In this document: positions 1-50,639 of the stretch, in pieces
Numbering within the stretch: the first letter of the stretch is position 1
How the letters are laid out: each line of letters starts with the position of its first letter
NCBI RefSeq assembly: GCF_900113875.1
Contig: NZ_FORA01000009.1
Coordinates: forward strand, 1-50,639
DNA from: Jannaschia pohangensis
GTDB taxonomy: Bacteria; Pseudomonadota; Alphaproteobacteria; Rhodobacterales; Rhodobacteraceae
Length of the DNA stretch: 50,639 nucleotides
Direction of reading: 5' to 3'
Translations under genes and position numbers: made by a program
Notes under the pieces: generated by a model
What the model was told of the DNA's origin: nothing
The model's database searches: none
Seen by the model: the letters and a program-made list of their open reading frames with translations, nothing else

Positions 1-95
1 ACGCCCGAAAACCCGCTGACGGCGGCGTTGAGGCCGATGACATGCGGCACGGGGCGGAGTTCGGCCAGGCGCAGCGCGATGGCCCCGCCGGCGGA
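1..95. repeat. Terminal direct repeat, left copy (circle join)
   Basis: These 95 bases are identical to the last 95 bases (50545-50639). The bchO reading frame runs through the join without a break. This is the signature of a circular molecule whose sequence was written slightly past its closing point, probably an assembly overlap of one k-mer length, rather than a biological long terminal repeat. The circle is then 50,544 bp. Confidence 0.95.
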
Positions 96-419
96 ATGGC
101 CGATCAGGGCGGCGGGGTCCCAACCCTGGTCGTCCATCAGGCGGGCGATATCCTCGGCCATGGGGTCGAGACCGCAGCGGCCCGGTGCGCCCATCCGGGT
201 AAAGCCCTGACCGGGCAGATCAAAGGCCACGACGCGGTGATCGCGGGCCAGACGGGGCATCAGGTGCCGCCAGCTCTGTGTCGCGCCACCCGCCCCGTGG
301 AGCAGGATCAGGAGCGGGCCCGCGCCCGTCTCGGTCACGTGCCAGCGGTGCGGGGTGCAATCGACGATGCGGGAATGCTCGGCCAGCGGCCAGTCGGAGG
401 ACGTGCCGGGCCAGCGCAT
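1..419 (-). CDS. bchO: BchO, magnesium chelatase accessory alpha/beta hydrolase (N-terminal part)
   Basis: N-terminal 139-140 codons of BchO; the gene continues at 50544 on the circle and stops at 50112, giving 283 aa, normal for the family. The start ATG (419-417) lies 4 nt after the bchD stop, so the two are translationally coupled. Visible alpha/beta-hydrolase features are the oxyanion-hole HGAGG (residues 41-45) and the nucleophile elbow GHSAGG (107-112, Ser109). The acid and histidine are in the other part. BchO is found with bchI and bchD in purple bacteria and is linked to Mg insertion into protoporphyrin IX, but its exact reaction is not settled. Identity is strong from sequence and from operon position crtA-bchI-bchD-bchO. 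Confidence 0.93.
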   Translation of the reverse strand, partial: MRWPGTSSDWPLAEHSRIVDCTPHRWHVTETGAGPLLILLHGAGGATQSWRHLMPRLARDHRVVAFDLPGQGFTRMGAPGRCGLDPMAEDIARLMDDQGWDPAALIGHSAGGAIALRLAELRPVPHVIGLNAAVSGFSG

Positions 420-423
420 CGGG

Positions 424-2079
424 TCAGTCGCCCATTGCGGCGCTGATGGCCCCCGAAAGGCTGCGCGCGTCGGCGCGGGGCAGGGGCAGATAGGCACCGC
501 CAAGCGTCTGGGCCATTTGGCGCAGGCTGTCTTCGGGGCGACGGCCGGTGTCGATCACGATGGCGTCGAGCCGGTCGGCGGCCAGAAGGCGGGTCAGGCG
601 GGTCACATCCTCGGCCGCCTGCGCGCGATTGGCGGTGCCGTCCAGCGCGATGTTGCTGCGCCCGTCGGTGAGCAGGACGAGGGTCGGGGTCAGGCCCTTG
701 CGGCGGGCGGCCCGTGCCATGGCCTGGGCCTCGACCAAGCCCGAGGCGAGAGGGGTCGCGCCGCCGCCGGGCAGATCGGCCAGTCGGCGCTTCGTCTGGA
801 CCAGCGAGCGGGTGGGCGGCAGCAGCAGATCTGCCTCGCGCCCCCGGAAGGCGATCAGGGCGACGTGGTCGCGGCGGGCATAGGCCTCGGCCAGCAGGAG
901 TTCGACCGCGCCCTTTGCCTCGGCCAGACGCGCGATTGCGGCGGAGCCTGAGGCATCGACAGCAAAGATCAGCAGGCGGTCGGAGGTCTGCTCGTAGCGT
1001 TTGTGGCGCAGGTCGGAGGTCAGGATGATCGGACCCGTGCGCTCGGGAAATTGGCGCTTGCGCAGCGTCTGCCATGGGGCGGCGGCGCGCAGGCTGGCGA
1101 TGAGGTCGATGCGGGCCCCGGCGCCGCCGCGCGCACCCCGGGCGGGCAGGGGGCGACCGCGCCGGTTGCCCTGACGTTTCGCGCCCGAGCCACTGCCGGA
1201 GCCGCTGCGCGTCTGGCCCGCGTTCAGGCGCGCCAGAAGGTCGGGGGGCAGAGCGGCGCGGATCGCCTCGATGAGCATGTCGTCGGGCAGGGCGTCGGCC
1301 TGTTCGGTGTCGCCCCGGTCGGGCTGGTCGTACTGGTCGTCGGATTGCGGTTCCGGCGTAGGGTCGTCTTCGGGCGGGGCGGGCAGGCGGGTGGCCCGGT
1401 GGGCAAGGACGAGTTGCACGGCCGTCGTGATGTCGTCCTCGGTCGGGCTGTCGTGGCCCATAACGGCGGTGAGGCCGCGAAGGGCGCGCAGGGCCAGAAG
1501 GGGCGCGCGCAAGCCGTCGATGCCGAAGGCTTCGGCCAGGGCGACGATGCGGGGGGCGGTGTCGTCGGGGACTCTCGGGTCTGATTGCGTCTCTGACACG
1601 GGGGTTTCGGGGGTCGGCAGGTCGGCCATGGCAAGGCCGCCCAGGTCGATGTGAAAGGCGCAGCGGTCGGTGAGGTCGGCGGGCAGCGCCTCGTCCTCCT
1701 TGCCCTCGTCACAGGCGATGAGGGGGCCGTGACCGGCGTCCAGATGCGCGGCGAGGCGCTTGGCGACGAAGGGCTGCGCCCGCTCGCCCATGGGCAGGAT
1801 CAGGGGGCCACCCCAGGCCAGCAGGCCGCGCGTCATCACCGGCGCGCCGGCGGCCAGCGTGGCCTGAACGTCGAGGCCGCCGTCGAGGTCTTCGGGGCCG
1901 ACGGTCACGGGCACCTTGCGCAGGGGGCCGAGCGTGGCGCGACAGAGATCGAGGGCCGCGCTTTGGGCGGGGCCAACGCGCCCGCGCAGGACCAGACCGC
2001 CCAGACCCGGATCGGCGCGCAGAAGGCGCAGGGCCAGCGTCAGGCGCGCCCAGGTGTCGAGGGCGGGCGCGTCGGTCAC
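424..2079 (-). CDS. bchD: BchD, magnesium chelatase subunit D
   Basis: Subunit D of the ATP-dependent Mg-chelatase (BchI, BchD, BchH), which inserts Mg2+ into protoporphyrin IX at the first committed step of bacteriochlorophyll synthesis. The 551-aa protein has a degenerate AAA+ N-terminal half, an acidic/Pro-rich linker (about 232-268), a Gly/Ser-Arg basic stretch (about 290-322), and a C-terminal von Willebrand A integrin-like domain with the MIDAS motif DASGS (375-379). The AAA+ half lacks a proper Walker A, as is usual for BchD. Its ATG overlaps the bchI stop by 4 nt (ATGA). Cytoplasmic. Confidence 0.96.
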   Translation of the reverse strand: MTDAPALDTWARLTLALRLLRADPGLGGLVLRGRVGPAQSAALDLCRATLGPLRKVPVTVGPEDLDGGLDVQATLAAGAPVMTRGLLAWGGPLILPMGERAQPFVAKRLAAHLDAGHGPLIACDEGKEDEALPADLTDRCAFHIDLGGLAMADLPTPETPVSETQSDPRVPDDTAPRIVALAEAFGIDGLRAPLLALRALRGLTAVMGHDSPTEDDITTAVQLVLAHRATRLPAPPEDDPTPEPQSDDQYDQPDRGDTEQADALPDDMLIEAIRAALPPDLLARLNAGQTRSGSGSGSGAKRQGNRRGRPLPARGARGGAGARIDLIASLRAAAPWQTLRKRQFPERTGPIILTSDLRHKRYEQTSDRLLIFAVDASGSAAIARLAEAKGAVELLLAEAYARRDHVALIAFRGREADLLLPPTRSLVQTKRRLADLPGGGATPLASGLVEAQAMARAARRKGLTPTLVLLTDGRSNIALDGTANRAQAAEDVTRLTRLLAADRLDAIVIDTGRRPEDSLRQMAQTLGGAYLPLPRADARSLSGAISAAMGD

Positions 2080-3089
2080 GCCCCGAGCACCTCGGCCACC
2101 GTGCGGGCGACACGGGTGCCGGACCCGGCCTCGTCCAGCGGATCGCGGCGCAGGCGGTGGCGCAGGGCAAGGGTGGCGACGGCGCGGATATGGGTGCGGC
2201 CCACGGCGGTGTCATCGCGGAAGGCGGCAAAGGCGCGGGCGGCGCGCAGCAGGATGAGTTCGCCGCGCAGACCGTCGGACCCGAGGCGCAGGCAGAGGCC
2301 CGCGATATCCTCCAGCGCGCTGTCGGGGGTGGTAACCTGTTTCAGGGCCTGACGGGCGGTCACGATGCGGTCGCGCAGGGCGGCATCCTCGGCTTGCCAG
2401 CGGAGCATGAAGGCGCTGTGGTCGCGCTCATAGGCGTCGCGGCGGCGGATGACCTCCACGCGTTCCGAAACCTCCTTCGGGGAGGTGACGTCGACCGAGA
2501 GGCCGAAGCGGTCGAGGAGTTGGGGGCGCAGTTCGCCCTCCTCCGGGTTGCCGGAACCAACGAGGACGAAGCGCGCGGCGTGGCGGATCGACAGACCTTC
2601 GCGCTCCACCACGTTTTCGCCCGACTGGGCCACATCGAGCAGCAGGTCGACGATGTGATCCTCGAGCAGGTTGACCTCGTCGATATAGAGATAGCCACGG
2701 TTCGCCTTGGCCAGAAGACCCGGTTGAAACGCCTTTTCCCCCAGTGTCAGAGCCTTTTCGATGTCGAGCGCGCCGGTCACCCGATCTTCGGACGCGCCAA
2801 GCGGCAGGTCGACGACGGGGGTCGGGATGTCGTGCGAGACGTCGGGCAGGTCACCGGCCCAATCGGGGCAATCGGCGCGCTGTGCGGCGTTCACCGGACA
2901 GTCGCGGATCGCGGTGATGGGCGGCAGAAGGGCGGCCAGCGCGCGCACGGCGGTGGACTTGCCCGTGCCCCGGTCGCCGAAAACCAGGACGCCGCCGATG
3001 CTGGGGTCGATGGCGGTCAGGATCATCGCGGTCTTCATGTCCTCCTGCCCGACGATGGCCGAGAAGGGGAAGGGGTGGCGGGTGGTCAT
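2076..3089 (-). CDS. bchI: BchI, magnesium chelatase ATPase subunit I
   Basis: AAA+ ATPase motor of Mg-chelatase that forms rings with BchD and drives Mg insertion by BchH. 337 aa, the usual family length. Walker A is GDRGTGKST (38-46) and Walker B is YLYIDE (134-139), followed by NLLEDH. An upstream in-frame extension exists, but the ATG at 3089 is chosen because it starts the conserved protein, follows an AAAGGA ribosome site, and overlaps the crtA stop as ATGA. Second gene of the crtA-bchI-bchD-bchO operon. Confidence 0.97.
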   Translation of the reverse strand: MTTRHPFPFSAIVGQEDMKTAMILTAIDPSIGGVLVFGDRGTGKSTAVRALAALLPPITAIRDCPVNAAQRADCPDWAGDLPDVSHDIPTPVVDLPLGASEDRVTGALDIEKALTLGEKAFQPGLLAKANRGYLYIDEVNLLEDHIVDLLLDVAQSGENVVEREGLSIRHAARFVLVGSGNPEEGELRPQLLDRFGLSVDVTSPKEVSERVEVIRRRDAYERDHSAFMLRWQAEDAALRDRIVTARQALKQVTTPDSALEDIAGLCLRLGSDGLRGELILLRAARAFAAFRDDTAVGRTHIRAVATLALRHRLRRDPLDEAGSGTRVARTVAEVLGA

Positions 3090-3790
3090 GCGGTGTCCTT
3101 TCGCAGGGGCGACGCGCCGCCCCAGGTGCCGGTGTCGTCGAGAAGGGCGAAACGGGCATAGAGTTCTTCCTGAAACCAGCCTTCGTCCCGGACGGCGCGG
3201 ATCGCGTCGCCATGGGGCCCGGAGCGGGCGAAGGCCGCCATGCGGGCGGCGTCGGGCCAGATCGAGAAGGTGACCTGATGCAACCAAGGAACCTCGCCGA
3301 TGCCGATCTTGAACATGACGTTCGGATCGCGCCCGATAACGCGGCTGATGTCGGGGACTCGGCTCCAGAAGCGGCGCATCAGCCCCGGTTTGACCGTGGC
3401 GCGGGTGAGGGCGGCGAGGGGGCCCGAGGTGTCCTGGGTGTCGGAGACGGCAAAGGGTGCCACGCCCGACCAGGCGCCGCGCACCGATTGCGGCGACAAA
3501 AACACCGTCCAGGATTCGGCGGCGCGGACGCGGTAGCGGCGAAACACCGCAGCCTGATCCAGCCGCGCGCGGGCCGTGGCAAGGTCGGGCCAGGTCGAGA
3601 TGATCGCATAGACCGCCGTATTGGGGCGGGGGGTAAAGCCTTCGCCCGTGCCCGAGCCGCAGAGTTTCCAGAAGCCGATGTCGGGAACGCGGGCCATCGC
3701 GGGACGCGCCAGACCCATCATGGCAAAGGCCCAGAGACGCGCGGCCACGGGGCCGAACCTGTAAAAGGTGATGCTGACGACTTGAGTCAT
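3086..3790 (-). CDS. crtA: CrtA, spheroidene monooxygenase
   Basis: Oxygen-dependent ketolase that converts spheroidene to spheroidenone, the pink carotenoid of aerobically grown purple bacteria. The 234-aa protein shows the conserved family stretches RVPDIGFWKLCGSGTGEGF near the N-terminus and PNVMFKIGIGEVPWLHQVTFSIW in the C-terminal half. It is first in the operon with bchIDO. Its promoter faces crtI across 109 bp holding two PpsR boxes. Presence of crtA predicts spheroidenone and fits an aerobic lifestyle. Confidence 0.95.
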   Translation of the reverse strand: MTQVVSITFYRFGPVAARLWAFAMMGLARPAMARVPDIGFWKLCGSGTGEGFTPRPNTAVYAIISTWPDLATARARLDQAAVFRRYRVRAAESWTVFLSPQSVRGAWSGVAPFAVSDTQDTSGPLAALTRATVKPGLMRRFWSRVPDISRVIGRDPNVMFKIGIGEVPWLHQVTFSIWPDAARMAAFARSGPHGDAIRAVRDEGWFQEELYARFALLDDTGTWGGASPLRKDTA

Positions 3791-3899: not shown

Positions 3900-5468
3900 A
3901 TGACCAACCGCATCCCACACCCCGCCACCGCGCCCGACGACGGCCATGCAATCGTCATTGGTGCGGGGCTTGGGGGCCTCGCCTCGGCCATGCGGCTTGG
4001 GGCCAAGGGGTATCGCGTCACCGTTCTGGACCGGCTGGACCGGGCGGGCGGGCGCGGATCGTCGATCAGCCAGGACGGCCACCGATTCGATCTGGGTCCG
4101 ACCATCGTCACCGCACCGCAGGTCTTCGAAGAGCTGTGGGCCGCCTGCGGGCGCGATTTCCGCCGCGATGTCGACCTGCGCCCCGTCGATCCGTTCTATG
4201 AGGTCCGCTGGCCCGATGGCACGCGGTTCCGCGCCACGGGGGACGACGCGAAGATGATGGAGGAGGTGGCCCGCATCTCTCCGGGGGATGTGCGCGGCTA
4301 CATGAGATTCCTGAAGGATGCGCAGGCGCGCTATGTCGTCGGGTACGAGGGCATGGTGGCGAAACCGATGCACCGCCTGTGGGAGACGATCAAGGTCCTG
4401 CCCCGGTTCGCGATGCTGCGCGCCGACCGCTCGATCTATGGCCATGCCGCCGCGCGGGTGCGGGACGAAAAGCTGCGCATGGCGCTGTCGTTTCATCCGC
4501 TCTTCATCGGGGGCGACCCGATGCATGTGACGTCGATGTATGCGCTGGTCGCGCATCTGGAGAAGACCTTCGGCGTGCATTACGCCATGGGCGGGGTGCA
4601 GGCGATTGCCGACGCCATGGCCGACGTGGTGCGCGATCAGGGCGGAATCATCCGCCAGGGTGTCGAGGTCGATGAGATCCTGATCAAGGGGAATGCCGCG
4701 CGCGGTGTCCGCCTGACCGACGGTCAGGAGATGGCCGCGCCGCTGATCGTGTCGAACGCCGATGCCGGGCACACCTATGACCGCCTGCTGCGCAATCACA
4801 AACGCCGCCGCTGGACCCGTCGCAAGCTGGCGGCGAAACGGTGGTCCATGGGTCTCTATGTCTGGTATTTCGGCACCAGGGGCACGCGCGGCGATTGGGC
4901 GGACCTGGGGCATCACACGATCCTGAACGGGCCGCGCTATACCGGGCTGCTGCGCGACATCTTCCTGCGCGGCAAGCTGTCGGATGATTTCAGTCTTTAT
5001 ATCCACCGCCCCTCGGTCACCGATCCGACGGTTGCGCCCAAGGGCGACGACACCTTCTATGTGCTGTCGCCGGTGCCGCATCTGGGGTGGGACGATCCCG
5101 TCGATTGGGAGGCCGAGGCGCCGAAGTATCGCGACAAGATCGCCGCCGTTCTGGAAACCGTCATGCCGGGGTTCCGCGACAAGATCAGCACGCAAACCGA
5201 GTTCACCCCCGCCACCTTCCGCGACCGATATCTGTCGCCCCATGGCTGCGGGTTCTCGATCGAGCCGCGCATCCTGCAAAGCGCCTGGTTCCGGCCCCAT
5301 AACGTCAGCGAAGAGGCGAAGGGCCTGTTCCTCGTTGGGGCGGGCACGCATCCCGGCGCGGGCCTGCCCGGTGTCGTGTCGAGTGCGACCGTCATCGACA
5401 AGATGATCCCCGATTGCCCCGTGGCCCGCAGCGCGGACACCACGCCGACCCGATTGGCCGCCGAATGA
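3900..5468 (+). CDS. crtI: CrtI, phytoene desaturase (neurosporene-forming type)
   Basis: FAD-dependent, membrane-associated desaturase introducing double bonds into phytoene; in spheroidene-pathway bacteria it stops at neurosporene (three steps). 522 aa. The N-terminal dinucleotide fold GAGLGG (21-26) is followed by LDRLDRAGGRGS, and the C-terminal FAD motif is LFLVGAGTHPGAGLPGVV. The start ATG lies 17 nt after the second PpsR box, with only a weak ribosome site. The stop overlaps the crtB ATG (ATGA). Number of desaturation steps is inferred from the accompanying crtA/C/D/F genes. Confidence 0.96.
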   Translation: MTNRIPHPATAPDDGHAIVIGAGLGGLASAMRLGAKGYRVTVLDRLDRAGGRGSSISQDGHRFDLGPTIVTAPQVFEELWAACGRDFRRDVDLRPVDPFYEVRWPDGTRFRATGDDAKMMEEVARISPGDVRGYMRFLKDAQARYVVGYEGMVAKPMHRLWETIKVLPRFAMLRADRSIYGHAAARVRDEKLRMALSFHPLFIGGDPMHVTSMYALVAHLEKTFGVHYAMGGVQAIADAMADVVRDQGGIIRQGVEVDEILIKGNAARGVRLTDGQEMAAPLIVSNADAGHTYDRLLRNHKRRRWTRRKLAAKRWSMGLYVWYFGTRGTRGDWADLGHHTILNGPRYTGLLRDIFLRGKLSDDFSLYIHRPSVTDPTVAPKGDDTFYVLSPVPHLGWDDPVDWEAEAPKYRDKIAAVLETVMPGFRDKISTQTEFTPATFRDRYLSPHGCGFSIEPRILQSAWFRPHNVSEEAKGLFLVGAGTHPGAGLPGVVSSATVIDKMIPDCPVARSADTTPTRLAAE

Positions 5469-6484
5469 CTTCGGCCGCCGACCTTGCCCATTGCCGCGAG
5501 GCGATCCGGACCGGGTCGCGGTCGTTCCATGCGGCGTCCAAGCTGCTGCCCGCGCGCGTGCGGGATCCGGCGCTGGCGCTCTATGCCTTTTGCCGACTCG
5601 CTGATGATGAGGTGGACGAGGGCTATGACAAGGCGCGCGCCGTGCTGCGGCTTCAGGCGCGGCTGGATGCGGTCTATGCGGGCACGCCTGACGATGCGCC
5701 CGAGGATCGGGCCTTTGCCGGTTTGGTCCGCGATTTCGACATGCCCCGCGCGCTGCCCGAAGCCCTGCTCGAGGGGTTGGCCTGGGACGCGACGGGCCGC
5801 CGCTATGCCAGCCTGTCCGACCTGCGGTCCTATTCCGCGCGGGTGGCCAGTGCGGTCGGCGCGATGATGTGCGTGCTGATGGGGGTGCGCGATGCCGATG
5901 CGCTGGCGCGGGCCTGCGATCTGGGCGTGGCGATGCAGTTGACGAACATCGCCCGCGACGTGGGCGAAGATGCGCGGGCCGGTCGGCTCTATCTGCCGAC
6001 GGAATGGCTGGCCGAGGCGGGCATCGACGCGGAGGCGTTTCTGGCCGATCCGCAGCCCACGCCCGAAATCCGCCGCATGACCCGTCGCCTGCTGTCCGAA
6101 GGTCAGCGGCTCTATATCCGGTCCGAGGCAGGGGTGGCGAAGTTGCCCCGGGGCGCGCGTCTGGGCATCTATGCCGCGCGCTACATCTATGCCGGGATCG
6201 GGACGGCGCTGCGGGCGCGGGGCCACGACAGCGTGACGTATCGGGCCCATACCAGGGGTCTGCACAAGGCGTTTCTGGCGGGCAAGGCGGCGCTGCGCAC
6301 GGGCGGGACGTTCGTCCTGCCGCAGTCGCCGGTGCTCTATGCCGCGCCGCTCGACGAGGTGCGCTTTCTGGTGGAGGCCGCCGCCGATGGTGCGCCACGC
6401 GCCCAGGGGCGGACGGCGGCCTTGTTGTCAGTGCTGGCCGACCTTCGGCAGGGCGTCGGCACGACGGGCGTTGCCGCGGAGTAG
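5465..6484 (+). CDS. crtB: CrtB, phytoene synthase
   Basis: Condenses two geranylgeranyl diphosphates head-to-head to phytoene. 339 aa. Both Asp-rich Mg-diphosphate motifs are visible: RLADDEVDEG (47-51 DDEVD) and NIARDVGED (161-169), the latter followed by the signature region GRLYLP. An upstream in-frame start near 5414 was rejected because the ATG at 5465 makes the normal N-terminus and an ATGA overlap with crtI. Confidence 0.96.
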   Translation: MTSAADLAHCREAIRTGSRSFHAASKLLPARVRDPALALYAFCRLADDEVDEGYDKARAVLRLQARLDAVYAGTPDDAPEDRAFAGLVRDFDMPRALPEALLEGLAWDATGRRYASLSDLRSYSARVASAVGAMMCVLMGVRDADALARACDLGVAMQLTNIARDVGEDARAGRLYLPTEWLAEAGIDAEAFLADPQPTPEIRRMTRRLLSEGQRLYIRSEAGVAKLPRGARLGIYAARYIYAGIGTALRARGHDSVTYRAHTRGLHKAFLAGKAALRTGGTFVLPQSPVLYAAPLDEVRFLVEAAADGAPRAQGRTAALLSVLADLRQGVGTTGVAAE

Positions 6485-6505
6485 CGGACGCACTAGGTGC
6501 CGTTC

Positions 6506-6985
6506 ATGAGCATCACACTTTTCCTTCTGTTTCTTCTGGCGTGCTGCGGCGCGGGCGCGACAGGCGCCGTGTTCCAGCCCGGGGCCTGGTACAAGTCGCT
6601 CGAGAAGCCGGACTGGACGCCGCCCGACTGGGTTTTCCCGGTGGCCTGGACGACGATCTATCTGTGCATTTCGTTCGCCGGGGCACGGGTCGCGGTTCTG
6701 GACGGGAACGAATTCGCCCTTGCCTTCTGGGCGATCCAGGGGGCTTTCGCCACACTCTGGACGCCGGTGTTCTTTGGCCTGCGCCGGCTCAAGGGGTCGC
6801 TTCTGGTGATGGTCGTGCTCTGGCCCGCCGTGGCCGGGGCGACGTGGTTCCACCTGCAACTGGATGTCTGGGCGGGGCTGGCGTTCCTGCCCTATCTGGT
6901 CTGGGTCACGGTGGCGGCGGCGCTCAATTTCCGGATGTGGCGGCTCAACCCGGATGTGACGCCGATCCGCCCGGGCGAGCTGTAG
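6506..6985 (+). CDS. tspO: TspO/CrtK tryptophan-rich sensory membrane protein
   Basis: Five-helix membrane protein (159 aa) of the TspO/MBR family, known in Rhodobacter as an oxygen-responsive modulator of photosynthesis gene expression that affects tetrapyrrole intermediates. Seen: hydrophobic start MSITLFLLFLL, the family core WYKSLEKPDWTPPDWVFPVAWT, and several further hydrophobic Trp-rich segments. The ATG at 6506 follows AGGTG; a GTG at 6497 would add three residues. It follows crtB closely, and its last 41 nt overlap the 3' end of the convergent crtC. Confidence 0.93.
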   Translation: MSITLFLLFLLACCGAGATGAVFQPGAWYKSLEKPDWTPPDWVFPVAWTTIYLCISFAGARVAVLDGNEFALAFWAIQGAFATLWTPVFFGLRRLKGSLLVMVVLWPAVAGATWFHLQLDVWAGLAFLPYLVWVTVAAALNFRMWRLNPDVTPIRPGEL

Positions 6986-38766: not shown

Positions 38767-38771
38767 CCCCG

Positions 38772-43117: not shown

Positions 43118-43350
43118 GCGCCGCCGAAGGCCGTCTCGATCTGATCCTCGCCCATGGTGTCGAAGTCATCGGGCACCTTGGCCCCGGCCAGAAACCCGAT
43201 GCGCCGACCGGTCAGGTCGGCGGGCTCCAGCGCCACGACCTTCACCAGCGGCTTGCCCGCACGCGCGATCACGAAAGGCTCGCCGCCCAGGGCGGCCTCG
43301 ACCAGCCGGGACAGGTTCGTCTTGGCGTCATGCATATTCACGGTCTTCAT
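43114..43350 (-). CDS. Phd/YefM-type antitoxin
   Basis: 78-aa antitoxin partner of the PIN toxin. The N-terminus MKTVNMHDAKTNLSRLVEAALGGEPFVIARAGKPLVKVVAL is the Phd/YefM DNA-binding fold; the C-terminal part (GAKVPDDFDTMGEDQIETAF) should wrap the toxin. There is a GGAGG ribosome site. The 54-bp upstream gap has a TTGAAG/TAAGTT promoter-like pair and AACTAAGTT, and abuts the parS-like palindrome at the end of parB. Confidence 0.87.
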   Translation of the reverse strand: MKTVNMHDAKTNLSRLVEAALGGEPFVIARAGKPLVKVVALEPADLTGRRIGFLAGAKVPDDFDTMGEDQIETAFGGA

Positions 43351-43404: not shown

Positions 43405-43424
43405 GATTTCCCCGCGGGGAAATC
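43405..43424. repeat. parS-like palindrome, copy 1 (parB stop)
   Basis: GATTTCCCCGCGGGGAAATC, a perfect 20-bp palindrome that overlaps the parB stop codon. An identical 20-mer lies inside parA and a 16-bp core copy upstream of parA. Proposed centromere (ParB binding) sites; binding is inferred. Confidence 0.75.
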
Positions 43425-44523
43425 ACCGCCCCAACTCGGTGAAGAAGGCCTCGATCGCGCGTTCCAGCTTGTCACGGTCAACCGCCGCGAAATCCATGTC
43501 GGCCCGCATCTCCATCTTGCCGTCCGTCGCGGTGCAGCGCACCCCCGGCCCCACCGGCACCGACAGACCCACCCTGCCCCGCCGCGCCGCCTTGGGCGCG
43601 CCCCGCGTCTTGGCGGGCAGCGGCGCGCTTTCCCGCTCCAGCGCACGACGCAGGATCGCCACCTCCTCCTCCGCGGTCCGGTCCGGCGCCTCGCGCAGCG
43701 CCCCGATGATCCGCTTGAGCGCCTCGGGCGCGCCCTCGATCCGGTCGGCCAGTTTCAGGCCAAGCGACCGGGGCAAGGCGGGCGCATGGCTCAAGTGCTT
43801 GTCCATCAGCCGCAGGACCAGGGCGAAGCGCCGGATATAGCTCCGCTTCTGCGGCCCCACGGAGGCATAGAGCCGGTTCACCGCCTCATCCACGTCGCTG
43901 CACCCCTCCACCCGCTCATCGGCATAGGCCAGCGCCAGAGCCGCCATCTCGGCGAACGACACGCCCTTGCGGATCAGGTTTTCATCCACCATCCGCCGAT
44001 AGAGCGCGGCCGCGCCCTGCCCCGCCGCGACCATGCCGGCGGGAATCCTGTCCCACTTGGGGTTGCCGGTTTCCTGCGACAGCTCTCGATAGGCCGACAG
44101 CCGCCGCAATCCCTCGACCAGTTCATAACGACCCCCAGCAACGGACTCGACCCGGATCGGGTTCGACAGCCCGACCTCGCGCAGCGACGCCTTCAGCTCT
44201 GCCAATTCCAGGTCGCCCGACCGCGCCCGGTCACGCGTCAGCTTGTGCGTATCGATCAGGTCGATGGGCACCAGGTCGGTGATCAGCCCCTCGCCCTTCA
44301 GCCGCACGAACTCATGGGCCAGCGCGTCGTTCTCGGCCCGGATATCCGCTTCAATGGCCTTACGATAGCGCAGCGCGTCGCCCGTCTCGCCGATCGCCGT
44401 GGCCATCGGTCCGCGCCTGCGACCGGGTGTGGCAGACTTCGTTTCGATCTCAGGGGGAAGGTCCGCGACCTCGGGCGTCTCCTCGGGGACGTCGATGTCG
44501 AACATACGGCGTTTGCGGCTCAT
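43423..44523 (-). CDS. parB: ParB-type partition protein
   Basis: Plasmid centromere-binding partition protein, 366 aa. Seen: an N-terminal ParA-interacting region after KRRMFDIDVP, a ParB/Srx-like N-domain DLVPIDLIDTHKLTRDRA with ELKASLREVGLSNPIRV and the box EGLRRLSAYREL (GERR-like arginine patch), then a helix-turn-helix region around KGVSFAEMAALALAYADER. It likely binds the three palindromes described here. The ATG at 44523 overlaps the parA stop (ATGA). Confidence 0.88.
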   Translation of the reverse strand: MSRKRRMFDIDVPEETPEVADLPPEIETKSATPGRRRGPMATAIGETGDALRYRKAIEADIRAENDALAHEFVRLKGEGLITDLVPIDLIDTHKLTRDRARSGDLELAELKASLREVGLSNPIRVESVAGGRYELVEGLRRLSAYRELSQETGNPKWDRIPAGMVAAGQGAAALYRRMVDENLIRKGVSFAEMAALALAYADERVEGCSDVDEAVNRLYASVGPQKRSYIRRFALVLRLMDKHLSHAPALPRSLGLKLADRIEGAPEALKRIIGALREAPDRTAEEEVAILRRALERESAPLPAKTRGAPKAARRGRVGLSVPVGPGVRCTATDGKMEMRADMDFAAVDRDKLERAIEAFFTELGR

Positions 44524-45824
44524 TGCTCTTCCTCCAACTGCTTCCAGGCGGTCAGGACGTGACCGATGAATTCGCCATAGGCGGCATCGAAGGTCGACCG
44601 CGCCCGCCGCCACGTCTCCCGCGTCATGTCCCGGTAATCGATCTCATAGACCGACGACAGGAACCGCCCCGATTGCTCGACCGCGCGGGTGTGTTCGATG
44701 GGGTGCACCGTCATCCGCTCCCCGAACACTTTCCCGAAGGCATCTTTCATCGCGCGGTGCAGATCGTTCCCCGGCTCGTACCGCGTCAACAAAAACCGGA
44801 CATCCAGAAACGCCTTCTTCGATTTCCCCGCGGGGAAATCCGTCCCCGCGTCGAAACCGTGGAGGTCGGCGAGGGCTTCGGAGAGTTGGCCGATGAAGGA
44901 CGTCGTACTGTCGTACTCCCAATAGCCGGGACCGGAGGGGATATAGAGGATGTCGGCCGCAAAGACCGCATTCATCGACTGATAGCCGATGGCGGGCGGG
45001 CAGTCGAAAATCACGATGTCATAGGCGTCTGGCGGCAGGGCGTCGAGCCAGCGTTGGACGGCGGCAAAGAACGACCAGTCGGGGTTGACGTGCCGGTACT
45101 GGGCGCTCGCGAATTCCACGAAAGCCGCGTTGGCGCAGCTTGGCACGATGTCGATCGTTGACCAGCAGGTCGGGCGGATGAAGTCGCTGGCGCGCAGATC
45201 ACTCAGACCCGTATCGGCAATCGACGCGGGCACGCGCCGTTGGGGCAGGGCGCGGCCACTTTCGGCACCTTGCGCAGCGCGATTCATCCGCTCCGTCTCG
45301 CGCATCAGGTCGCGGGCCATGATGCCCCAGACGGTGTGATCCTCGGACACGTCGTTGAGCCCCATGGAATGGCTGAGCGTGGCCTGCGGGTCGAAGTCGA
45401 TGGCCAGCACCCGGTAACCATCCAGCGCCGCCGCATGGGCCAGATGCAGCGCAGTCGTCGATTTGCCGGCACCACCCTTGAAGTTCGCCACGGCACAGCG
45501 GATCGCACGCCGGTTGGCGGGCCGTTCGGGCATCAGCGAGCGCCGGTTAACCCGCATCCGGCGGCGCAGTTCGTTCACCTCGTCGAGCGAGAACCAGCGT
45601 TGCCGCCCGTCCGGCTCCACTTCGCCCGACGGCAGGCTCGGATCGGCGGCAAGGCGACCGCGAAAGGTGTTCTGATTCACCCGGAAAATCAGCTCCGCCA
45701 CTTCCCAGGACGAAAAGCGCCGCAAGGTCTTTTCATGCCCGGGCGAAAAGGTCTGCTTGCGGATCCAGCCCTGCATTCGGAGCGACGCGTCGCGCAGCGC
45801 CTCCAGGTCGGTATGGTCATACAT
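44520..45824 (-). CDS. parA: ParA-type partition ATPase with N-terminal HTH
   Basis: Type Ia ParA, 434 aa. N-terminal winged/MerR-like DNA-binding part (FSSWEVAELIFRVNQNTFRGRL ... WFSLDEVNELRRRM), then the deviant Walker A FKGGAGKSTT (115-124), IDFDPQATLSHSMGL, and IFDCPPAIGY as Walker B. Large ParAs of this kind also repress their own operon. A TTG at 45836 was rejected for the ATG at 45824. The coding stretch for DFPAGKS is made by the parS-like palindrome at 44821-44840. Confidence 0.92.
   Translation of the reverse strand: MYDHTDLEALRDASLRMQGWIRKQTFSPGHEKTLRRFSSWEVAELIFRVNQNTFRGRLAADPSLPSGEVEPDGRQRWFSLDEVNELRRRMRVNRRSLMPERPANRRAIRCAVANFKGGAGKSTTALHLAHAAALDGYRVLAIDFDPQATLSHSMGLNDVSEDHTVWGIMARDLMRETERMNRAAQGAESGRALPQRRVPASIADTGLSDLRASDFIRPTCWSTIDIVPSCANAAFVEFASAQYRHVNPDWSFFAAVQRWLDALPPDAYDIVIFDCPPAIGYQSMNAVFAADILYIPSGPGYWEYDSTTSFIGQLSEALADLHGFDAGTDFPAGKSKKAFLDVRFLLTRYEPGNDLHRAMKDAFGKVFGERMTVHPIEHTRAVEQSGRFLSSVYEIDYRDMTRETWRRARSTFDAAYGEFIGHVLTAWKQLEEEQ
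44821..44840. repeat. parS-like palindrome, copy 2 (inside parA)
   Basis: The same 20-bp palindrome GATTTCCCCGCGGGGAAATC, embedded in parA where it is read as part of the codons for DFPAGKS. A full-length identical copy inside a coding region argues that the DNA site itself is selected. Confidence 0.75.
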
Positions 45825-45915
45825 CTGCCGCCTCAACGTTATTATGTTCTGAATTCCGAAATACGCCGAATTTGACTTTCACGCAATCCTCCGGACATGA
45901 TAGGGTCAGATCCCA

Positions 45916-45931
45916 TTTCCCCGCGGGGAAA
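45916..45931. repeat. parS-like palindrome core, copy 3 (upstream of parA)
   Basis: TTTCCCCGCGGGGAAA, the 16-bp core of the 20-bp palindromes in parA and at the parB stop, flanked by outer GGGTC and GACCC arms. It lies about 90 bp upstream of the parA ATG, where a ParB or ParA operator would be expected. Confidence 0.72.
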
Positions 45932-46007: not shown

Positions 46008-46054
46008 CTTGAGGGGACATCAGGAGGCTTCCCCCACAGCTTGAGGGGACATCA
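46008..46054. repeat. Iteron-like direct repeats
   Basis: Two copies of CTTGAGGGGACATCA begin at 46008 and 46040, 32 bp apart (about three helical turns). The second copy extends into GCTTGA-N7-TCAAGC, an inverted repeat at 46039-46057. Candidate replicase-binding sites. Confidence 0.6.
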
Positions 46055-46220: not shown

Positions 46221-46964
46221 ATGCTGAAAGAGGCGAGAGACAGTGATGACCAGACACCCCGATGGACCAGGGTCGATGTCATGATCCGGCGTGACGCACG
46301 ACCGGTGACCGGCGTCCATGCTCCGGCGTTCAAATACGACCTGCTGACGGCGCTTGGCACCTATGCCTGCACTGGCGACAAGCATCGCACCCGACTCGTG
46401 ATCCGGTTCATCACCCTTGTAACCGCGCGCTATGACTGGCGGGCCGATACGCTGACCACGGGCCAGCGCGAGATCGCGCGAATGTGGTCGGTGGATGAGC
46501 GGACGGTAAAACGTGAGATGGCCAGGCTGCGTGAGATGGGGTGGCTTGTGATGAAACGGCCGGCGGCGCGGGGGCGGGTGGCGTGTTACGGTCTGGGCTT
46601 GCAGACCCTGCTGGCCGATACACGGGACGTCTGGGCGCTGGTCGGGCCTGATTTCGAGGCTCGAATGGCGGGCCCGGACCTGATCGCGACCTCGGACAAG
46701 GTGATCGCCTTTCCGCGCGTGGTGTCGGAAGGGGCAAGCCCCTGGGATGACCTCTGTGCCCGCTGGCACGGTGTGGATCCCGCGACGCATCTGGCCTGGA
46801 TCGCGCCGCTGAGCTTCGACGGGTTTGACGACGGCGTCCTGAGCCTGCGCGCGCCGACGGGGTTTCACGCGAGCTTCGTGCGCACACACCATCTGGGCGA
46901 CTTGATGGCCCATGGGCGGAGGGTCATGCCCGGCCTCACCGAAGTGCGGATTTCACCGCGTTAG
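46221..46964 (+). CDS. DnaA-like plasmid replicase
   Basis: 247-aa replication initiator. A winged helix-turn-helix region TLTTGQREIARMWSVDERTVKREMARLREMGWLV (about 78-110) is followed, near the C-terminus, by WDDLCARWHGVDPATHLAWIAPLSFDGFDDGVLSLRAPTGFHASFVRTHH (about 175-224), which resembles the N-terminal domain of DnaA. This fits the DnaA-like replicases known from Rhodobacterales plasmids, including the divergent parAB. The stop overlaps the kinase stop on the other strand by 4 nt. No RepC or RepB gene is present. Family assignment is by recognition; the compatibility subgroup cannot be decided by eye. Confidence 0.8.
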   Translation: MLKEARDSDDQTPRWTRVDVMIRRDARPVTGVHAPAFKYDLLTALGTYACTGDKHRTRLVIRFITLVTARYDWRADTLTTGQREIARMWSVDERTVKREMARLREMGWLVMKRPAARGRVACYGLGLQTLLADTRDVWALVGPDFEARMAGPDLIATSDKVIAFPRVVSEGASPWDDLCARWHGVDPATHLAWIAPLSFDGFDDGVLSLRAPTGFHASFVRTHHLGDLMAHGRRVMPGLTEVRISPR

Positions 46965-47923
46965 AGACTGTTTTGCCGAAAGACGATGCGGAAAGCCGTG
47001 CCCGTGGGCGAGGGGGCCAGCGTGATGGTTCCACCATTCGCCTGAAGCAGGGCCGAGGTGATGGCGAGGCCCATGCCGGTGCCCCCGGACTCGCGTCTGG
47101 TGGTGAAGAAGGGGTTGAAGATACGAGCGCGGTTGCCGTCGGAAATGCCGCTGCCGTCATCCTGTACCGTGATTTCGACGCCTCCGTCCCGGCGCGTGGC
47201 GCGGATCGCCACTTCGGAGGCGCCATGGCGTGCGGCATTGTCGATCAGATGGTCGAGGACGGCCTGCAAACCGTCTCTGGCCAAGGGGATCTGTACATCC
47301 TTGCCGTCGATTTGCAAGGAAGGTGGGCCCTTTAGTGCAAGGTCGGACAGGCGGGTTTCGCCCCGGTGATCGGCCTCGCGCGCAGCCGTCACCCGGGCGA
47401 GGGCGGCCAGCTGCGCCTCGATCCGCAGGGTGGCGGTGCCGATCTGGTCCAGAAGGGTGCGGTCATCGGGGGACAGGCCACTGTCCGACAGCAGTTCCGA
47501 GGCGGCACGAATGGCGGCGACGGGGCCCTTCACCTCGTGCGTGACGTGATCGGCAAAGCTGCGGACCGAGGATTCGCGTGCCTGAAGCACCTGCGCCATG
47601 GCCATGACGTTGGTGCCCATCTCGTGCAGTTCCGGCGTGCCGTAGTGGCCCGGGGCCGGGGGCGCGGTGCCGGGCCGGACGCGCACCTGAGCGGCATAGG
47701 CGGACAGATCGCGCACCGGGCGCAGAAGCAGGCGGAGCATGAGCCACCAGGGGATCAGCGTCAGTGCGGCAATGGCGAGGGCGAGGCTGATCGCGGCCTG
47801 GCGAAAGCCGACGACGGGGCCCAGATAGCGCAGCGCGATGAGCCCCAGAAGCGACAGCACGAGTGTGCCCAGAAGCGCGCCGCCGAGGACAAGGGCCAGG
47901 GGCGGACGCCAGCGACGGCTCAT
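46961..47923 (-). CDS. Sensor histidine kinase
   Basis: 320-aa kinase with two N-terminal membrane helices (about 10-32 and 44-66) joined by only some ten residues, so almost no periplasmic sensor domain. HAMP-like linker, then the H-box FADHVTHEVKGPVAAI (phospho-acceptor His129), N-box DHLIDNAARHG, G1 DDGSGI and G2 GTGMGLAI. Third gene of an operon DUF4173-like / regulator / kinase, coupled to the regulator by ATGA. The signal is unknown; a membrane-internal signal or the DUF4173-like protein itself is plausible. Confidence 0.88.
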   Translation of the reverse strand: MSRRWRPPLALVLGGALLGTLVLSLLGLIALRYLGPVVGFRQAAISLALAIAALTLIPWWLMLRLLLRPVRDLSAYAAQVRVRPGTAPPAPGHYGTPELHEMGTNVMAMAQVLQARESSVRSFADHVTHEVKGPVAAIRAASELLSDSGLSPDDRTLLDQIGTATLRIEAQLAALARVTAAREADHRGETRLSDLALKGPPSLQIDGKDVQIPLARDGLQAVLDHLIDNAARHGASEVAIRATRRDGGVEITVQDDGSGISDGNRARIFNPFFTTRRESGGTGMGLAITSALLQANGGTITLAPSPTGTAFRIVFRQNSL

Positions 47924-48597
47924 GCTGAGAGGCCCACGCCGACCCCATGGACCGAGCGCAAGGCATCGGGTGCGCCAGCCTCGGCCAGTTTGCGGCGCAA
48001 GTTGCGCAGATGGCTGTCGAGGGTGCGATCGGAGACGCCGCTGCCCAGGCCCCAGATACGGTCGACCAGTGTCGGCCGGGCGATGAGCTGCCCCGGGCTG
48101 GCCATGAGATGCGTCAGGATCTGGCGTTCGGTGCCGGTCAGGTCGACCTCGGTCCCTGCGACCGACAGGCGATGCGCGGCGGGGTCAAGCTCCAGCAGGC
48201 CATGGCGCAGAAGCGGCGCGGCGCGCCCGGTGCTGCGCTTGAGAATGGCACGGATGCGGGCGACCAGTTCGCGCGGGCTGAAGGGTTTGGTGACATAGTC
48301 GTCGGCGCCGAGTTCGAGGCCCAGAATGCGGTCGATTTCGTCATCCTGCGCGGTCAGGAACAGGATGGGCACGTCCGATCTGGCACGCAGGCGTTTGCAG
48401 GTCTCGAAGCCGTCCATCTCGGGCAGGCCCACGTCGAGGACGATCAGGTCGGGACGCTCCCGCGCTGCATGGGTCAAAGCCTGCGCCCCGTCGGCGGCGG
48501 TGATCGTGGCGAACCCGGCCCGTGTCAGGGCAAGGGAGACGAGATCGCGCAGCTGCGGGTCATCGTCGGTCACGAGGATCTTCTGGGGCGTGGTCAT
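47920..48597 (-). CDS. OmpR/PhoB-type response regulator
   Basis: 225 aa: receiver domain with the acidic pocket TDDD, phospho-acceptor Asp55 in LIVLDVGLPEMDG, and Lys in DDYVTKPFSPRELVAR; then a winged-helix DNA-binding domain with LTGTERQILTHLMASPGQLIAR and SDRTLDSHLRNLRRKL. ATGA overlaps on both sides. It probably binds the four 11-bp-spaced GTGCA repeats upstream of this operon, since OmpR-family regulators recognise such direct repeats. Confidence 0.9.
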   Translation of the reverse strand: MTTPQKILVTDDDPQLRDLVSLALTRAGFATITAADGAQALTHAARERPDLIVLDVGLPEMDGFETCKRLRARSDVPILFLTAQDDEIDRILGLELGADDYVTKPFSPRELVARIRAILKRSTGRAAPLLRHGLLELDPAAHRLSVAGTEVDLTGTERQILTHLMASPGQLIARPTLVDRIWGLGSGVSDRTLDSHLRNLRRKLAEAGAPDALRSVHGVGVGLSA

Positions 48598-50021
48598 CGG
48601 CGGACACCTTGCGTTGCCGGTGCGGTATAGCGCGATGCGCGCCAGTCGCGGAAGGTCCAGTCGCGCCAGCCGTCGATGGTCAGGTCATGGGAGCAGCCGG
48701 TGATGGGGCCGGTGTTGGCGGGAAGGGTGCAGAGATAGCGCCAGTCGGGTTCGTCCAGGGCGACGTTGTGGCGGGCGATGATCGCGCCGAAGTTCACGAA
48801 ACAGGCGGTATAGAGCGTGACGAGGCCAAGGAGCGTGCAGCGGACCATCAGCCAGGCGGTGGTGTGGTTGCGCAGCAGGCCCCAGGCGGTCAGGACAAGA
48901 CCCGCCGCGACGACGCCCATCCAGACGGCGGCATGGATGCGCAGGTAGGTCAGGCCGAGTTCGCCCACGTAGATGTCGAGCCGCGCCACGGCGGAGGCGG
49001 TGGCCAGCAGGTTCTGCGCCAGCCACAGCAGGACGAGCGCGCGCAGGATCGGGTGACCGGCGACGAAGGGCCGGGCGGCGGCGGCGAAGACCCCGGCCAG
49101 CAGGGCGGTCGCGAGCAGGGGATAGGCCCCCCGGTGGGCGTATTCCGCAAGGCTGATCCCCGAGGGCAGGTCCGCGCCGGACCACAGATAGGCGATGTCG
49201 AGGCCGCTCTGCACGGCGATCATGGCGTTGAAGACGACCAGCGCGCGGGCCACGGCGGGCCCGTTCAGAAAGGCGGGCGTGCGCCAGTCGAGGGGTCGGT
49301 CGACGACGGCGGGTGTGGGTTGCAGGAACGGCCAGACGATCAGCGCGAGACCGCTCCAGAACATCAGGCGCGCGGGGGAGGGGCCGTCGGGCAGGCTGAG
49401 CAGGCCATCGAAGACCGGGTTCGATTCGAGCAGAAGCGCCGCCAGCACGAGCGCGCCGCCAAGGGGAAGCGCCCAACCGGTCGCGAGGTGGGTCAGTCGG
49501 CTGCGATCGACGGTGGGTTTGCGCAGGTCCCGCGCGGCGTCCAAGCCGTCGATGGGCAGGCGGTAAAGGATCGACAGGAGCCGTCTGGCGACGCTGCGCG
49601 CCAGGGTCATGGGGCCAGAGGGGCCGTCCAGCAAGGTGATCGACAGGGCCAGGCCCGCCAGCAGGATCGCGACGGACAGGGTCTGAACTGTCTCTATCAC
49701 GGGCAGAATGGCGAAGAGGAGGGTGAGGAGGGGCAGGGCAAGGCCCGCCGTGGCTCCGATCGTCACGATGGCTGCGGCGAAGACCGCGACGGCGAAGAGG
49801 GCGAGGGACAGGCCGGGGGCCGCGTCCCAGAACAGAAGGTCTCCAAGGGCGATCAGGGCCAGCAGAAGGGCCGCGCCCTCGACCCCGCGCCGACCTGTGG
49901 TGCCGGGGGTGACAGGGCCGGTCGGGGGCGGAGGAGGGGCGGCTTCGCCCGCCTGGGTCATCCACCACCCGTCTTGCGCCAACCTGCGGGGAAGGCCCCG
50001 GATCAAGAGATGCTCGGCCAT
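48594..50021 (-). CDS. Polytopic membrane protein, DUF4173-like
   Basis: 475-aa integral membrane protein with about 12 hydrophobic segments, a Pro-rich cytoplasmic N-terminus (GEAAPPPPPTGP), and a C-terminal soluble tail. Seen: ISLAEYAHRGAYPLLATALLAG, LTYLRIHAAVWMGVVAAG and YTACFVNFGAIIARHNV, which fit the DUF4173/DUF4153-type family. Function unknown. Start ATG at 50021 after AAAGGACG. First gene of a three-gene operon with a response regulator and histidine kinase, suggesting a membrane signalling unit. Nothing in it points directly to photosynthesis. Confidence 0.75.
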   Translation of the reverse strand: MAEHLLIRGLPRRLAQDGWWMTQAGEAAPPPPPTGPVTPGTTGRRGVEGAALLLALIALGDLLFWDAAPGLSLALFAVAVFAAAIVTIGATAGLALPLLTLLFAILPVIETVQTLSVAILLAGLALSITLLDGPSGPMTLARSVARRLLSILYRLPIDGLDAARDLRKPTVDRSRLTHLATGWALPLGGALVLAALLLESNPVFDGLLSLPDGPSPARLMFWSGLALIVWPFLQPTPAVVDRPLDWRTPAFLNGPAVARALVVFNAMIAVQSGLDIAYLWSGADLPSGISLAEYAHRGAYPLLATALLAGVFAAAARPFVAGHPILRALVLLWLAQNLLATASAVARLDIYVGELGLTYLRIHAAVWMGVVAAGLVLTAWGLLRNHTTAWLMVRCTLLGLVTLYTACFVNFGAIIARHNVALDEPDWRYLCTLPANTGPITGCSHDLTIDGWRDWTFRDWRASRYTAPATQGVRR

Positions 50022-50071
50022 GCTGCGTCCTTTCTGCGACGACGTTTCCCGCAGGATGTCGCCCGGCCCGG

Positions 50072-50109
50072 GTGCAGGCGCAGTGCATCGGTCGTGCAGG
50101 GGTCGTGCA
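50072..50109 (-). promoter_or_regulatory. Four GTGCA repeats at 11-bp period (regulator operator)
   Basis: GTGCA (TGCAC on the coding strand of the operon) occurs at 50072, 50083, 50094 and 50105, each exactly 11 bp apart. This is the classical geometry of binding sites for OmpR/PhoB-type regulators. The array lies in the 90-bp gap between bchO and the ATG of the membrane-protein gene, about 50-88 bp upstream. Autoregulation by the operon's own regulator is inferred. Confidence 0.75.
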
Positions 50110-50111
50110 GA

Positions 50112-50639
50112 TCAGGGTGCGAGCGCCGCGCGGATCGCCGTTTCGACGCGGGGCGCGTCTTCCTCGTGGGCGAGGTGGCCAAGACCCGGCAGGCTGACGT
50201 GGGTCGCATGGGGCATCCGTGCGGCCAGATCGGCAGAGACGCGGGGCGGCACGGTGTGGTCGCGGTCGCCAGTGATCAGGGTGACCGGCGTTTGCATCTC
50301 CGGCAGGCGCGCCAGGAGGGGGTCGAGCGACCATTGCGCCATCATTGCCAGGGTTCCGGCCACGTGATCCCGGTCGCTGACCAGACGGCGATAGAAGCGC
50401 AGGTCGTCAGATGGCAGATCGGAGCCGGTACCCGCGATCAACCGCTCGACCGACCCGGGGCGCGTTGCCGAGGCGGTGAACATCGTGGCGACGAAGGGCA
50501 GGGCCGACAGAGCCTTGGCCATGAGCGGGAAGAGCACGCCCGCGACGCCCGAAAACCCGCTGACGGCGGCGTTGAGGCCGATGACATGCGGCACGGGGCG
50601 GAGTTCGGCCAGGCGCAGCGCGATGGCCCCGCCGGCGGA
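50112..50639 (-). CDS. bchO: BchO, magnesium chelatase accessory alpha/beta hydrolase (C-terminal part)
   Basis: C-terminal part of the bchO gene whose start lies at 419; bases 50545-50639 repeat 1-95, so the protein closes across the join. It carries the remaining catalytic residues: Asp in LITGDRDHTVPP (residues 233/235) and His263 in PGLGHLAHEE. Stop at 50112. It is the last gene of crtA-bchI-bchD-bchO, and the two-component/DUF4173 operon starts 90 bp further on the same strand. Confidence 0.92.
   Translation of the reverse strand, partial: SAGGAIALRLAELRPVPHVIGLNAAVSGFSGVAGVLFPLMAKALSALPFVATMFTASATRPGSVERLIAGTGSDLPSDDLRFYRRLVSDRDHVAGTLAMMAQWSLDPLLARLPEMQTPVTLITGDRDHTVPPRVSADLAARMPHATHVSLPGLGHLAHEEDAPRVETAIRAALAP
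50545..50639. repeat. Terminal direct repeat, right copy (circle join)
   Basis: Exact copy of 1-95; read together with the in-frame closure of bchO it marks the end of a 50,544-bp circle. Confidence 0.95.

Follow-up and report, generated by a model that had tools for sequence, protein, structure and literature searches.

Photosynthesis gene clusters on plasmids are already described in the Rhodobacterales. The available part of Liu et al. 2019 (PMC6739100) gives Jannaschia pohangensis DSM 19073 a genome of 3.73 Mb in 18 contigs and a photosynthesis plasmid of 49.5 kb with a GC content of 66.88%, which it terms streamlined and, on the chromid question, classes as plasmid-like. Plasmids of 44 kb (Oceanicola sp. 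HL-35) and 54 kb (Shimia sp. wx04, also ponticola) are given there too, both near-minimal and with a DnaA-like I module in the accessible accounts of Liu et al. 2019 and Brinkmann et al. 2018 (PMC6052148); the latter proposed transfer by DnaA-like I plasmids earlier. The stretch analysed here (the window) is the J. pohangensis contig NZ_FORA01000009.1, 50,639 bp, the whole of contig C18 in an 18-contig genome of 3,733,035 bp in total. We consider it highly probable that the window represents the 50.5-kb photosynthesis plasmid of strain DSM 19073, a closed circle already in print: its GC content is 66.877%, 50,639/1024 equals 49.45, and it resembles the plasmid in the available text of Liu et al. 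in PufX type, type I layout and missing cytochrome c2 and idi, with no difference found. The plasmid is thus not new and almost certainly the same molecule, and the statement of a first-pass annotation of this DNA that known photosynthesis plasmids are about two times larger is outdated by the published ones of 44, 49.5 and 54 kb. What is new here is the circular gene order that the mapped replicons share.

Positions 1–95 of the window are identical to 50545–50639 in an end-to-end comparison, and this 95-mer has two matches in the whole host genome, both at the termini of C18. Across the join bchO runs as one open frame, whose protein scores 335 bits against TIGR03056 (positions 1–275 of 278), compared with just 194 and 166 bits for the unjoined, overlapping halves. 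Because the end identity is unique and BchO reads through the join, we accept from the assembly a closed circle of 50,544 bp, and the first-pass annotation was right about the repeated ends, the in-frame closure and the size. De Bruijn assemblers leave word-length end overlaps on circular contigs. The terminal overlap of a second photosynthesis contig of the genus (G003 C5) is likewise exactly 95 bp; overlaps of other photosynthesis contigs measure 77, 90, 121, 127, 139 or 299 bp, and the contig of G220 shows no overlap. That the window belongs to the chromosome or to a larger replicon, the 95-bp overlap being a repeat or an assembly error, is very improbable; we reject a chromosomal or artefactual origin on the end identity, the uniqueness of the 95-mer and the in-frame BchO. 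Such an origin could be argued from a draft assembly with no reads behind it, and is opposed by the confinement of the 95-mer to the two contig ends, the equal overlap length in another Jannaschia contig, the presence of a replication module on the window itself, and the same build in nine end-overlapping relatives (G002, G003, G005, G038, G115, G126, G185, G239 and G253) and in seven records marked circular. Three points nevertheless weigh against our reading of the replicon: its circularity is read from the assembly, it is equated with the plasmid of Liu et al. by the genus and four numbers, and its replicase reaches Pfam DnaA_N solely below the cut-off.

The window's proteins were mapped on 18 replicons: the window, G002, G003, G005, Tateyamaria omphalii, Thalassococcus S3, Roseobacter ponti, R. 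litoralis, Sulfitobacter guttiformis, Sulfitobacter S190, S. alexandrii, G115, G126, G220, G038 and, with overlapping contig ends and about 60 kb each mapped, G185, G239 and G253. Round the circle, the shared genes keep the same order and strands in 17 of them, the exception being Thalassococcus, where bchG-pucC-bchP is inverted. In every one of the 18 the replication genes are placed between hemA and bchO; the window and the 17 others hold the module between the bchIDO side and the hemA/puh end, with a 27% ParA match as its only marker in S. guttiformis and G038. A nineteenth replicon, the 613-kb plasmid of Roseinatronobacter S2, mapped over 80 kb, has a rearranged order and falls outside this pattern. 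The replicons differ in the place of their cargo, which sits beside the module in the Jannaschia plasmids (in G005 with 22 kb at dxs|bchP too), at dxs|bchP in Roseobacter, Tateyamaria and Thalassococcus (in the last also before ppsR), and at bchG|ppsR in Sulfitobacter (in S. alexandrii also beside the module). To judge by gene order, the type I and type II layouts, as set out in the accessible part of Liu et al. 2019 (PMC6739100), are one circle opened at different points. No paper of the searched literature combines 'photosynthesis gene cluster' with 'circular permutation', and a circular reading of the layouts is not met in the available portions of Liu 2019, Brinkmann 2018, Zheng 2011, PMC13386836 and PMC12654162.

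Among the described plasmids, R. litoralis pRLO149_94 and its relatives share with the window the circular gene order, the module position between hemA-cycA and bchO and a ParA 75% alike, but differ in 43 kb of cargo at dxs|bchP, an inverted module and the palindrome TGTCCCCGCGGGGACA; they have no PufX match at the place of the window's pufX and are PufC-type in the available text of Liu et al. 2019 (PMC6739100). S. guttiformis pSD118 has the same circular order and a ParA-like gene in the same joint, but that ParA is only 27% alike, no replicase match was found and 68 kb of cargo lie at bchG|ppsR; its module is of another type, given as RepB-III in the available parts of published papers. The Shimia contig G220 C12 is unlike the window in its reversed module and in a cycA-like frame after hemA.

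To place chromosomal clusters on the same circle, four layout markers were used (bchI, pufM, bchP and puhA). Out of 106 distinct pufM-bearing genomes 80 were used, the 26 left out being mostly fragmented or with pufM near a contig end; 14 of the 80 had markers on different contigs and 5 had them spread over more than 80 kb, which left 61 classed. Ten of these are plasmid-like by end overlap and/or a module in the joint (G000, the host, and G002, G003, G038, G115, G126, G185, G220, G239 and G253). Of the remaining 51, five (G020, G040, G047, G164 and G175) lie on contigs of merely 68–103 kb, which makes their chromosomal place uncertain. Rotations of the main circle account for 35/51 clusters, and all four openings are represented: puhA-bchI, at hemA|bchO (18), bchI-pufM (13; in G007 at tspO|crtC), pufM-bchP (2; in G151 at dxs|bchP) and bchP-puhA (2; exact point not read), the exact points having been read where DNA was fetched, namely in G007, G151 and the clusters open at hemA|bchO. 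The 16 others, counted among the 51 without a check of plasmid status, comprise 11 clusters on a second, partly inverted, Rhodobacter-like circle, in two rotations, and 5 with further inversions. Within the common strand pattern (45 classed genomes, 10 plasmid contigs) four rotations are seen and the other 20 of 24 possible orders are not. If the 10 single-segment moves of four blocks, 3 of which are rotations, were equally likely, the chance of seeing exactly these three would be 1/120, by our own arithmetic, which ignores selection for operon integrity and uses related genomes that are not independent. In the 17 clusters with a closed joint hemA and bchO are separated by 0.5–1.3 kb, in which nothing matches the module of the window; 16 of these clusters have a cycA-like frame after hemA.

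The cluster of G151 deserves separate mention. It lies on a 2.2-Mb contig and has its opening at dxs|bchP; hemA, cycA and bchO form a closed joint, and nothing there matches the module. The tree of photosynthesis proteins places G151 among the Roseobacter-type plasmids, as the sister of the Thalassococcus one, and a clade of the seven Roseobacter-type plasmids without it is rejected (approximately unbiased (AU) test, P = 0.0009), the test having been picked after the tree was seen. Beside dxs it carries genes for an S58 peptidase, a short-chain dehydrogenase/reductase (SDR) and an aldehyde dehydrogenase in the order of the T. omphalii and Thalassococcus plasmids; the peptidase and SDR neighbours are shared with R. 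litoralis and R. ponti too. Any specificity of these neighbours is provisional, the comparison covering the dxs flanks of only a few other chromosomal clusters. The G151 cluster is best read as a plasmid cluster that returned to the chromosome and shed its module, the joint closing behind it; an origin of these plasmids from a G151-type chromosome is conceivable but needs more events.

The joint itself seems to be a place where replication modules were exchanged. While the photosynthesis proteins of the window, G002, G003 and G005 form one clade with support 1.00 (3,534 columns, 55 rows), their ParA proteins are split: that of the window groups with pufM-free contigs of G009, G018 and G001, those of G002, G003 and G005 with contigs of G004 and G014. 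Forcing the four together is rejected (AU P = 1.9e-5), in a comparison made after a quick ParA tree had been seen, with the group taken from the photosynthesis tree. This test rejects the idea that, within the genus, module and photosynthesis genes were inherited vertically together. At the same joint, S. guttiformis and G038 have a distant ParA, and two Sulfitobacter a DnaA-like type that is likewise distant; the orientation parB-parA-rep of the window recurs in the Jannaschia plasmids and S. alexandrii, and the other plasmids with a replicase match have the opposite one. Because one photosynthesis clade thus stands against split ParA, with distant modules and both orientations at one joint, the module appears to have been exchanged in place.

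We propose, tentatively and short of calling it probable, that the photosynthesis cluster of the Rhodobacterales travelled as a circle, a single circular order lying behind the plasmids and many of the chromosomal clusters, with the hemA|bchO joint as docking site of modules and the closed hemA-cycA/bchO joints of chromosomes as scars of a plasmid stage. Several observations weigh against this proposal. The open layout is the commonest in chromosomes, 16/51 clusters are not rotations of the main circle, duplication with deletion can rotate a cluster as well, and the plasmid has no recognised transfer genes and its host no VirB4 homologue. Layout states are also clustered on the tree (13 changes versus at least 24 in 500 shuffles), as are the plasmid-or-chromosome state (6 versus at least 9) and the closed-or-open state of the joint (10 versus at least 12), and therefore there were fewer events than genomes. 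It is quite possible that no circles were involved and that the two layout types arose by transposition of chromosomal segments, or by tandem duplication and deletion, with each rotation breaking one operon junction. As only one internal junction is hit, selection alone would favour rotation, and both the non-rotated clusters and the small number of independent events speak for such rearrangements. They account less readily for replicons that do have this circular order (17 of 18, the eighteenth with one inversion), for the lack of any of the other 20 orders among 45 genomes with common strands, and for one chromosomal rotation nested among plasmids with the plasmid shoulder genes kept.

It is rather unlikely, in our view, that each plasmid formed independently by insertion of a linear cluster, ending in hemA and bchO, beside a replication module, the shared joint being convergence. 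Modules from several lineages and cargo on both sides of the module in Jannaschia plasmids of 67–125 kb are in its favour; however, the Roseobacter-type module sits tight between hemA-cycA and bchO with the large cargo away at dxs|bchP, and module exchange fits better with Jannaschia photosynthesis sets that form one clade while their ParA do not.

Near-minimal photosynthesis circles are, as far as assemblies tell, a recurrent class, since closed circles of 49.2, 50.8 and 52.9 kb occur in other genera together with the G220 contig: G126 C33 (49,231 bp, 139-bp overlap), G115 C6 (50,779 bp, 127-bp overlap), G038 C18 (52,925 bp, 127-bp overlap, only the distant ParA match in the joint) and G220 C12 (54,394 bp, ends without overlap). 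The first-pass annotation had pointed to relatives as the place to look for similar replicons, and there they were found. pufM is present in 14/20 genomes of the genus and 93/246 genomes of the family sample; it shares a contig with a DnaA-like replicase in four genus genomes (G000, G002, G003 and G005), and all four contigs show terminal overlaps. That of G005 (C33, 124,925 bp) is a larger photosynthesis plasmid, with 22 kb between dxs and bchP plus cargo at the joint. Two genomes carry more than one pufM. G072 has a divergent second pufM (56%, C3:52535–53446) and puhA (34%, C3:49376–50095) apart from the contig of its normal cluster, perhaps two different reaction centres in one genome; the two pufM genes of G192, on C67 and C99, are 71% and 77% alike to that of the window, which points either to a further cluster or to contaminating DNA.

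The module in the joint of the window is probably of the DnaA-like I (or RepB-III) kind. The order of rep next to divergent parAB fits the DnaA-like I group, with a DnaA_N match of 4e-4 that stays below the Pfam cut-off; the replicase is homologous to those of the R. litoralis and T. omphalii plasmids, and ParA falls with theirs on one side of a 100/100 branch. The first-pass annotation had named an own replicase, ParAB and a toxin-antitoxin, all of which were found, with the toxin now corrected to a PIN-domain protein and the antitoxin to Phd/YefM; this is a type II pair, as both families exceed their cut-offs and the genes share 4 bp. Three copies of the palindrome TTTCCCCGCGGGGAAA, with the core CCCCGCGGGG, lie in the window, none being expected by chance, and look like parS sites. 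At least one exact copy is found at 7/10 other DnaA-like loci of the genus, on pufM-free contigs, and also in each of its three other photosynthesis plasmids. The variant TGTCCCCGCGGGGACA is present in the four Roseobacter-type modules read (T. omphalii, R. litoralis, G220 and G253) and GTTCCCCGCGGGGAAC in the G115 module; the modules of S. guttiformis, S190, S. alexandrii, G126 and G038 have no palindrome within two changes. The outer bases of palindromes with the CCCCGCGGGG core vary by plasmid group (TTT..AAA, TGT..ACA, GTT..AAC) and are perhaps a compatibility mark. The host contig C17 (82,357 bp) carries a second DnaA-like replicase at 50754–51359, 37% alike and with no such palindrome nearby; this is probably a compatible plasmid. 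Between parA and rep, a pair of iteron-like TTGAGGGGACA repeats is a candidate origin. With at most one A-to-G change, 1–3 copies of TTGAGGGGACA occur in 9/10 other modules of the genus; none is present in the remaining readable photosynthesis modules, three modules having no excisable stretch.

Gene content was read from NCBIfam and Pfam scans of selected open reading frames (ORFs) of the window (Table 1). Round the circle the order is bchO-bchD-bchI-crtA, crtI-crtB-tspO, crtC-crtD, then crtE-crtF-bchCXYZ-pufQBALMX-dxs, bchP-pucC-bchG-ppsR-ppaA and bchFNBHLM-lhaA-puhABC-orf98-acsF-puhE-hemA, followed by PIN toxin and Phd antitoxin, parB, parA, replicase, sensor kinase/response regulator and DUF4153 protein. 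The set had been called complete for the reaction centre with light-harvesting complex 1 (LH1), bacteriochlorophyll a and spheroidenone. The puf, puh, bch and crt genes are indeed there, on a non-chromosomal replicon, and with cycA excepted the cluster is near-complete: no CxxCH frame occurs within 4.5 kb after hemA of the window. Of 55 clusters examined, 41 have such a cytochrome-c-like frame after hemA, and those without it include the window and the three other Jannaschia photosynthesis plasmids; idi was not seen among the scanned ORFs. The accessible part of Liu et al. 2019 (PMC6739100) likewise reports cytochrome c2 and idi as lacking in its three Jannaschia plasmids. With cytochrome c2 off the plasmid, the host must supply the electron carrier; its genome has 10 PF00034 (cytochrome-c domain) matches, none on C18. 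PF00124 matches, marking reaction-centre L/M genes, are found in the host genome only on C18. The window has no tRNA and no Rfam match at the gathering threshold.

Table 1. Features of the window, with coordinates, strand and the basis of each assignment.
Feature	Position	Strand	Basis
Terminal repeat, left copy (assembly overlap of the 50,544-bp circle)	1..95	+	identical to right copy; unique in genome
bchO, 5' part (start codon our choice)	1..419	-	joined-frame translation, TIGR03056
bchD	424..2079	-	NF009943, 608 bits
bchI (start not fixed)	2076..3080	-	TIGR02030, 525 bits
crtA, spheroidene monooxygenase	3086..3790	-	NF045923
crtI	3900..5468	+	TIGR02734
crtB	5465..6484	+	NF045921
tspO	6497..6985	+	NF047825
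crtC	6945..7817	-	NF045922
crtD	7811..9358	-	NF045637
crtE (polyprenyl diphosphate synthase)	9470..10372	+	sub-cut-off NCBIfam matches; position, synteny
crtF (methyltransferase)	10373..11485	+	weak NCBIfam match; position, synteny
bchC, bchX, bchY, bchZ	11618..16599	+	TIGR01202, TIGR02016, TIGR02015, TIGR02014
pufQ	16596..16829	+	PF05398
pufB and pufA, presumably LH1 beta and alpha	16939..17277	+	frame translation alone
pufL and pufM, reaction centre	17391..19162	+	TIGR01157, TIGR01115; PF00124
pufX	19182..19424	+	PF11511, 1.1e-22
dxs	19521..21431	+	TIGR00204
bchP, pucC-like transporter, bchG	21530..24903	-	TIGR02023, PF03209, TIGR01476
ppsR and ppaA regulators	24956..27207	-	TIGR02040; ppaA by position and sub-cut-off CarH match
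bchF, bchN, bchB	27281..30698	+	family scans
bchH, bchL, bchM	30691..35829	+	family scans
lhaA, puhA, puhB, puhC	35826..39242	+	family scans
orf98, acsF, puhE	39271..41500	+	TIGR02029, TIGR03055; orf98 conserved, no family above cut-off
hemA (5-aminolevulinate synthase), one side of joint	41497..42711	+	TIGR01821, 658 bits
PIN-domain toxin	42731..43117	-	PF01850 above cut-off
Phd/YefM antitoxin	43114..43350	-	PF02604 above cut-off
parS-like 16-bp palindrome, copy 1, just after parB	43407..43422		0 expected by chance
parB	43423..44613	-	PF02195, PF13614 for the parB-parA pair; TIGR03453 below cut-off
parA	44520..45836	-	PF02195, PF13614 for the parB-parA pair; TIGR03453 below cut-off
parS-like palindrome, copy 2, within parA	44823..44838		palindrome search
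parS-like palindrome, copy 3, between parA and rep	45916..45931		palindrome search
Two iteron-like repeats, 32 bp apart, candidate origin	46009..46051	+	repeat search
DnaA-like plasmid replicase	46221..46964	+	DnaA_N 4e-4, below cut-off; 289 plasmid records match
Sensor kinase and response regulator (CreBC-like two-component pair)	46961..48597	-	family scans
DUF4153 membrane protein	48594..50021	-	PF13687
bchO, 3' part (goes on at 419-1)	50112..50544	-	joined protein 335 bits, TIGR03056
Terminal repeat, right copy	50545..50639	+	identical to left copy; unique in genome

The two-component pair and the DUF4153 protein look like private cargo, because DUF4153 is rare in the genus and lies on other contigs there (2/19 other genomes, 44–51% alike). 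It is unmatched in ten other plasmids mapped, and matches to the kinase and regulator there are distant (28–31%) and confined to S190. Their inclusion in the photosynthesis unit was rejected on the rarity of DUF4153. The earlier statement was that no transposase, conjugation or unrelated metabolic gene is visible: no transposase, relaxase or conjugation gene was found among the scanned ORFs, so that part stands, with the two-component pair and the DUF4153 protein present in addition. The plasmid does not classify as conjugative or mobilisable, and self-transfer was rejected, as the scanned ORFs hold no relaxase or type IV secretion gene and the host genome no VirB4-type secretion ATPase (PF03135).

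A working model can be outlined from the sequence. The DnaA-like I replicase would initiate replication in the parA-rep intergenic region, at the two iteron-like repeats; ParAB, acting on the three palindromes, would partition the plasmid, and the Phd/PIN pair would punish its loss. The remainder is one superoperon, its ends hemA and bchO joined via the replication module. Loss of the plasmid would make the cell a heterotroph, because no reaction-centre L/M genes were found elsewhere in the host, and gain would bring phototrophy, given host tetrapyrrole precursors and a cytochrome donor. As a closed circle with a near-complete set and its own replication and partition, it is plausibly the attractive unit for gain or loss of phototrophy that the first-pass annotation saw in it.

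It has long been debated whether the Rhodobacterales inherited phototrophy, with later losses, or handed it from one to another; the plasmid itself adds nothing new here, but the comparison of gene orders may. If the proposal of a travelling circle is true, the type I and type II layouts would be only different openings, and the structure of the joint would serve to test whether phototrophy was once transferred by a plasmid. Each chromosomal cluster would then bear a readable mark of plasmid passage, with G151, its plasmid shoulder genes still attached, as the first worked case. The near-minimal circles of 49–54 kb in several genera are also a natural unit for transfer experiments.

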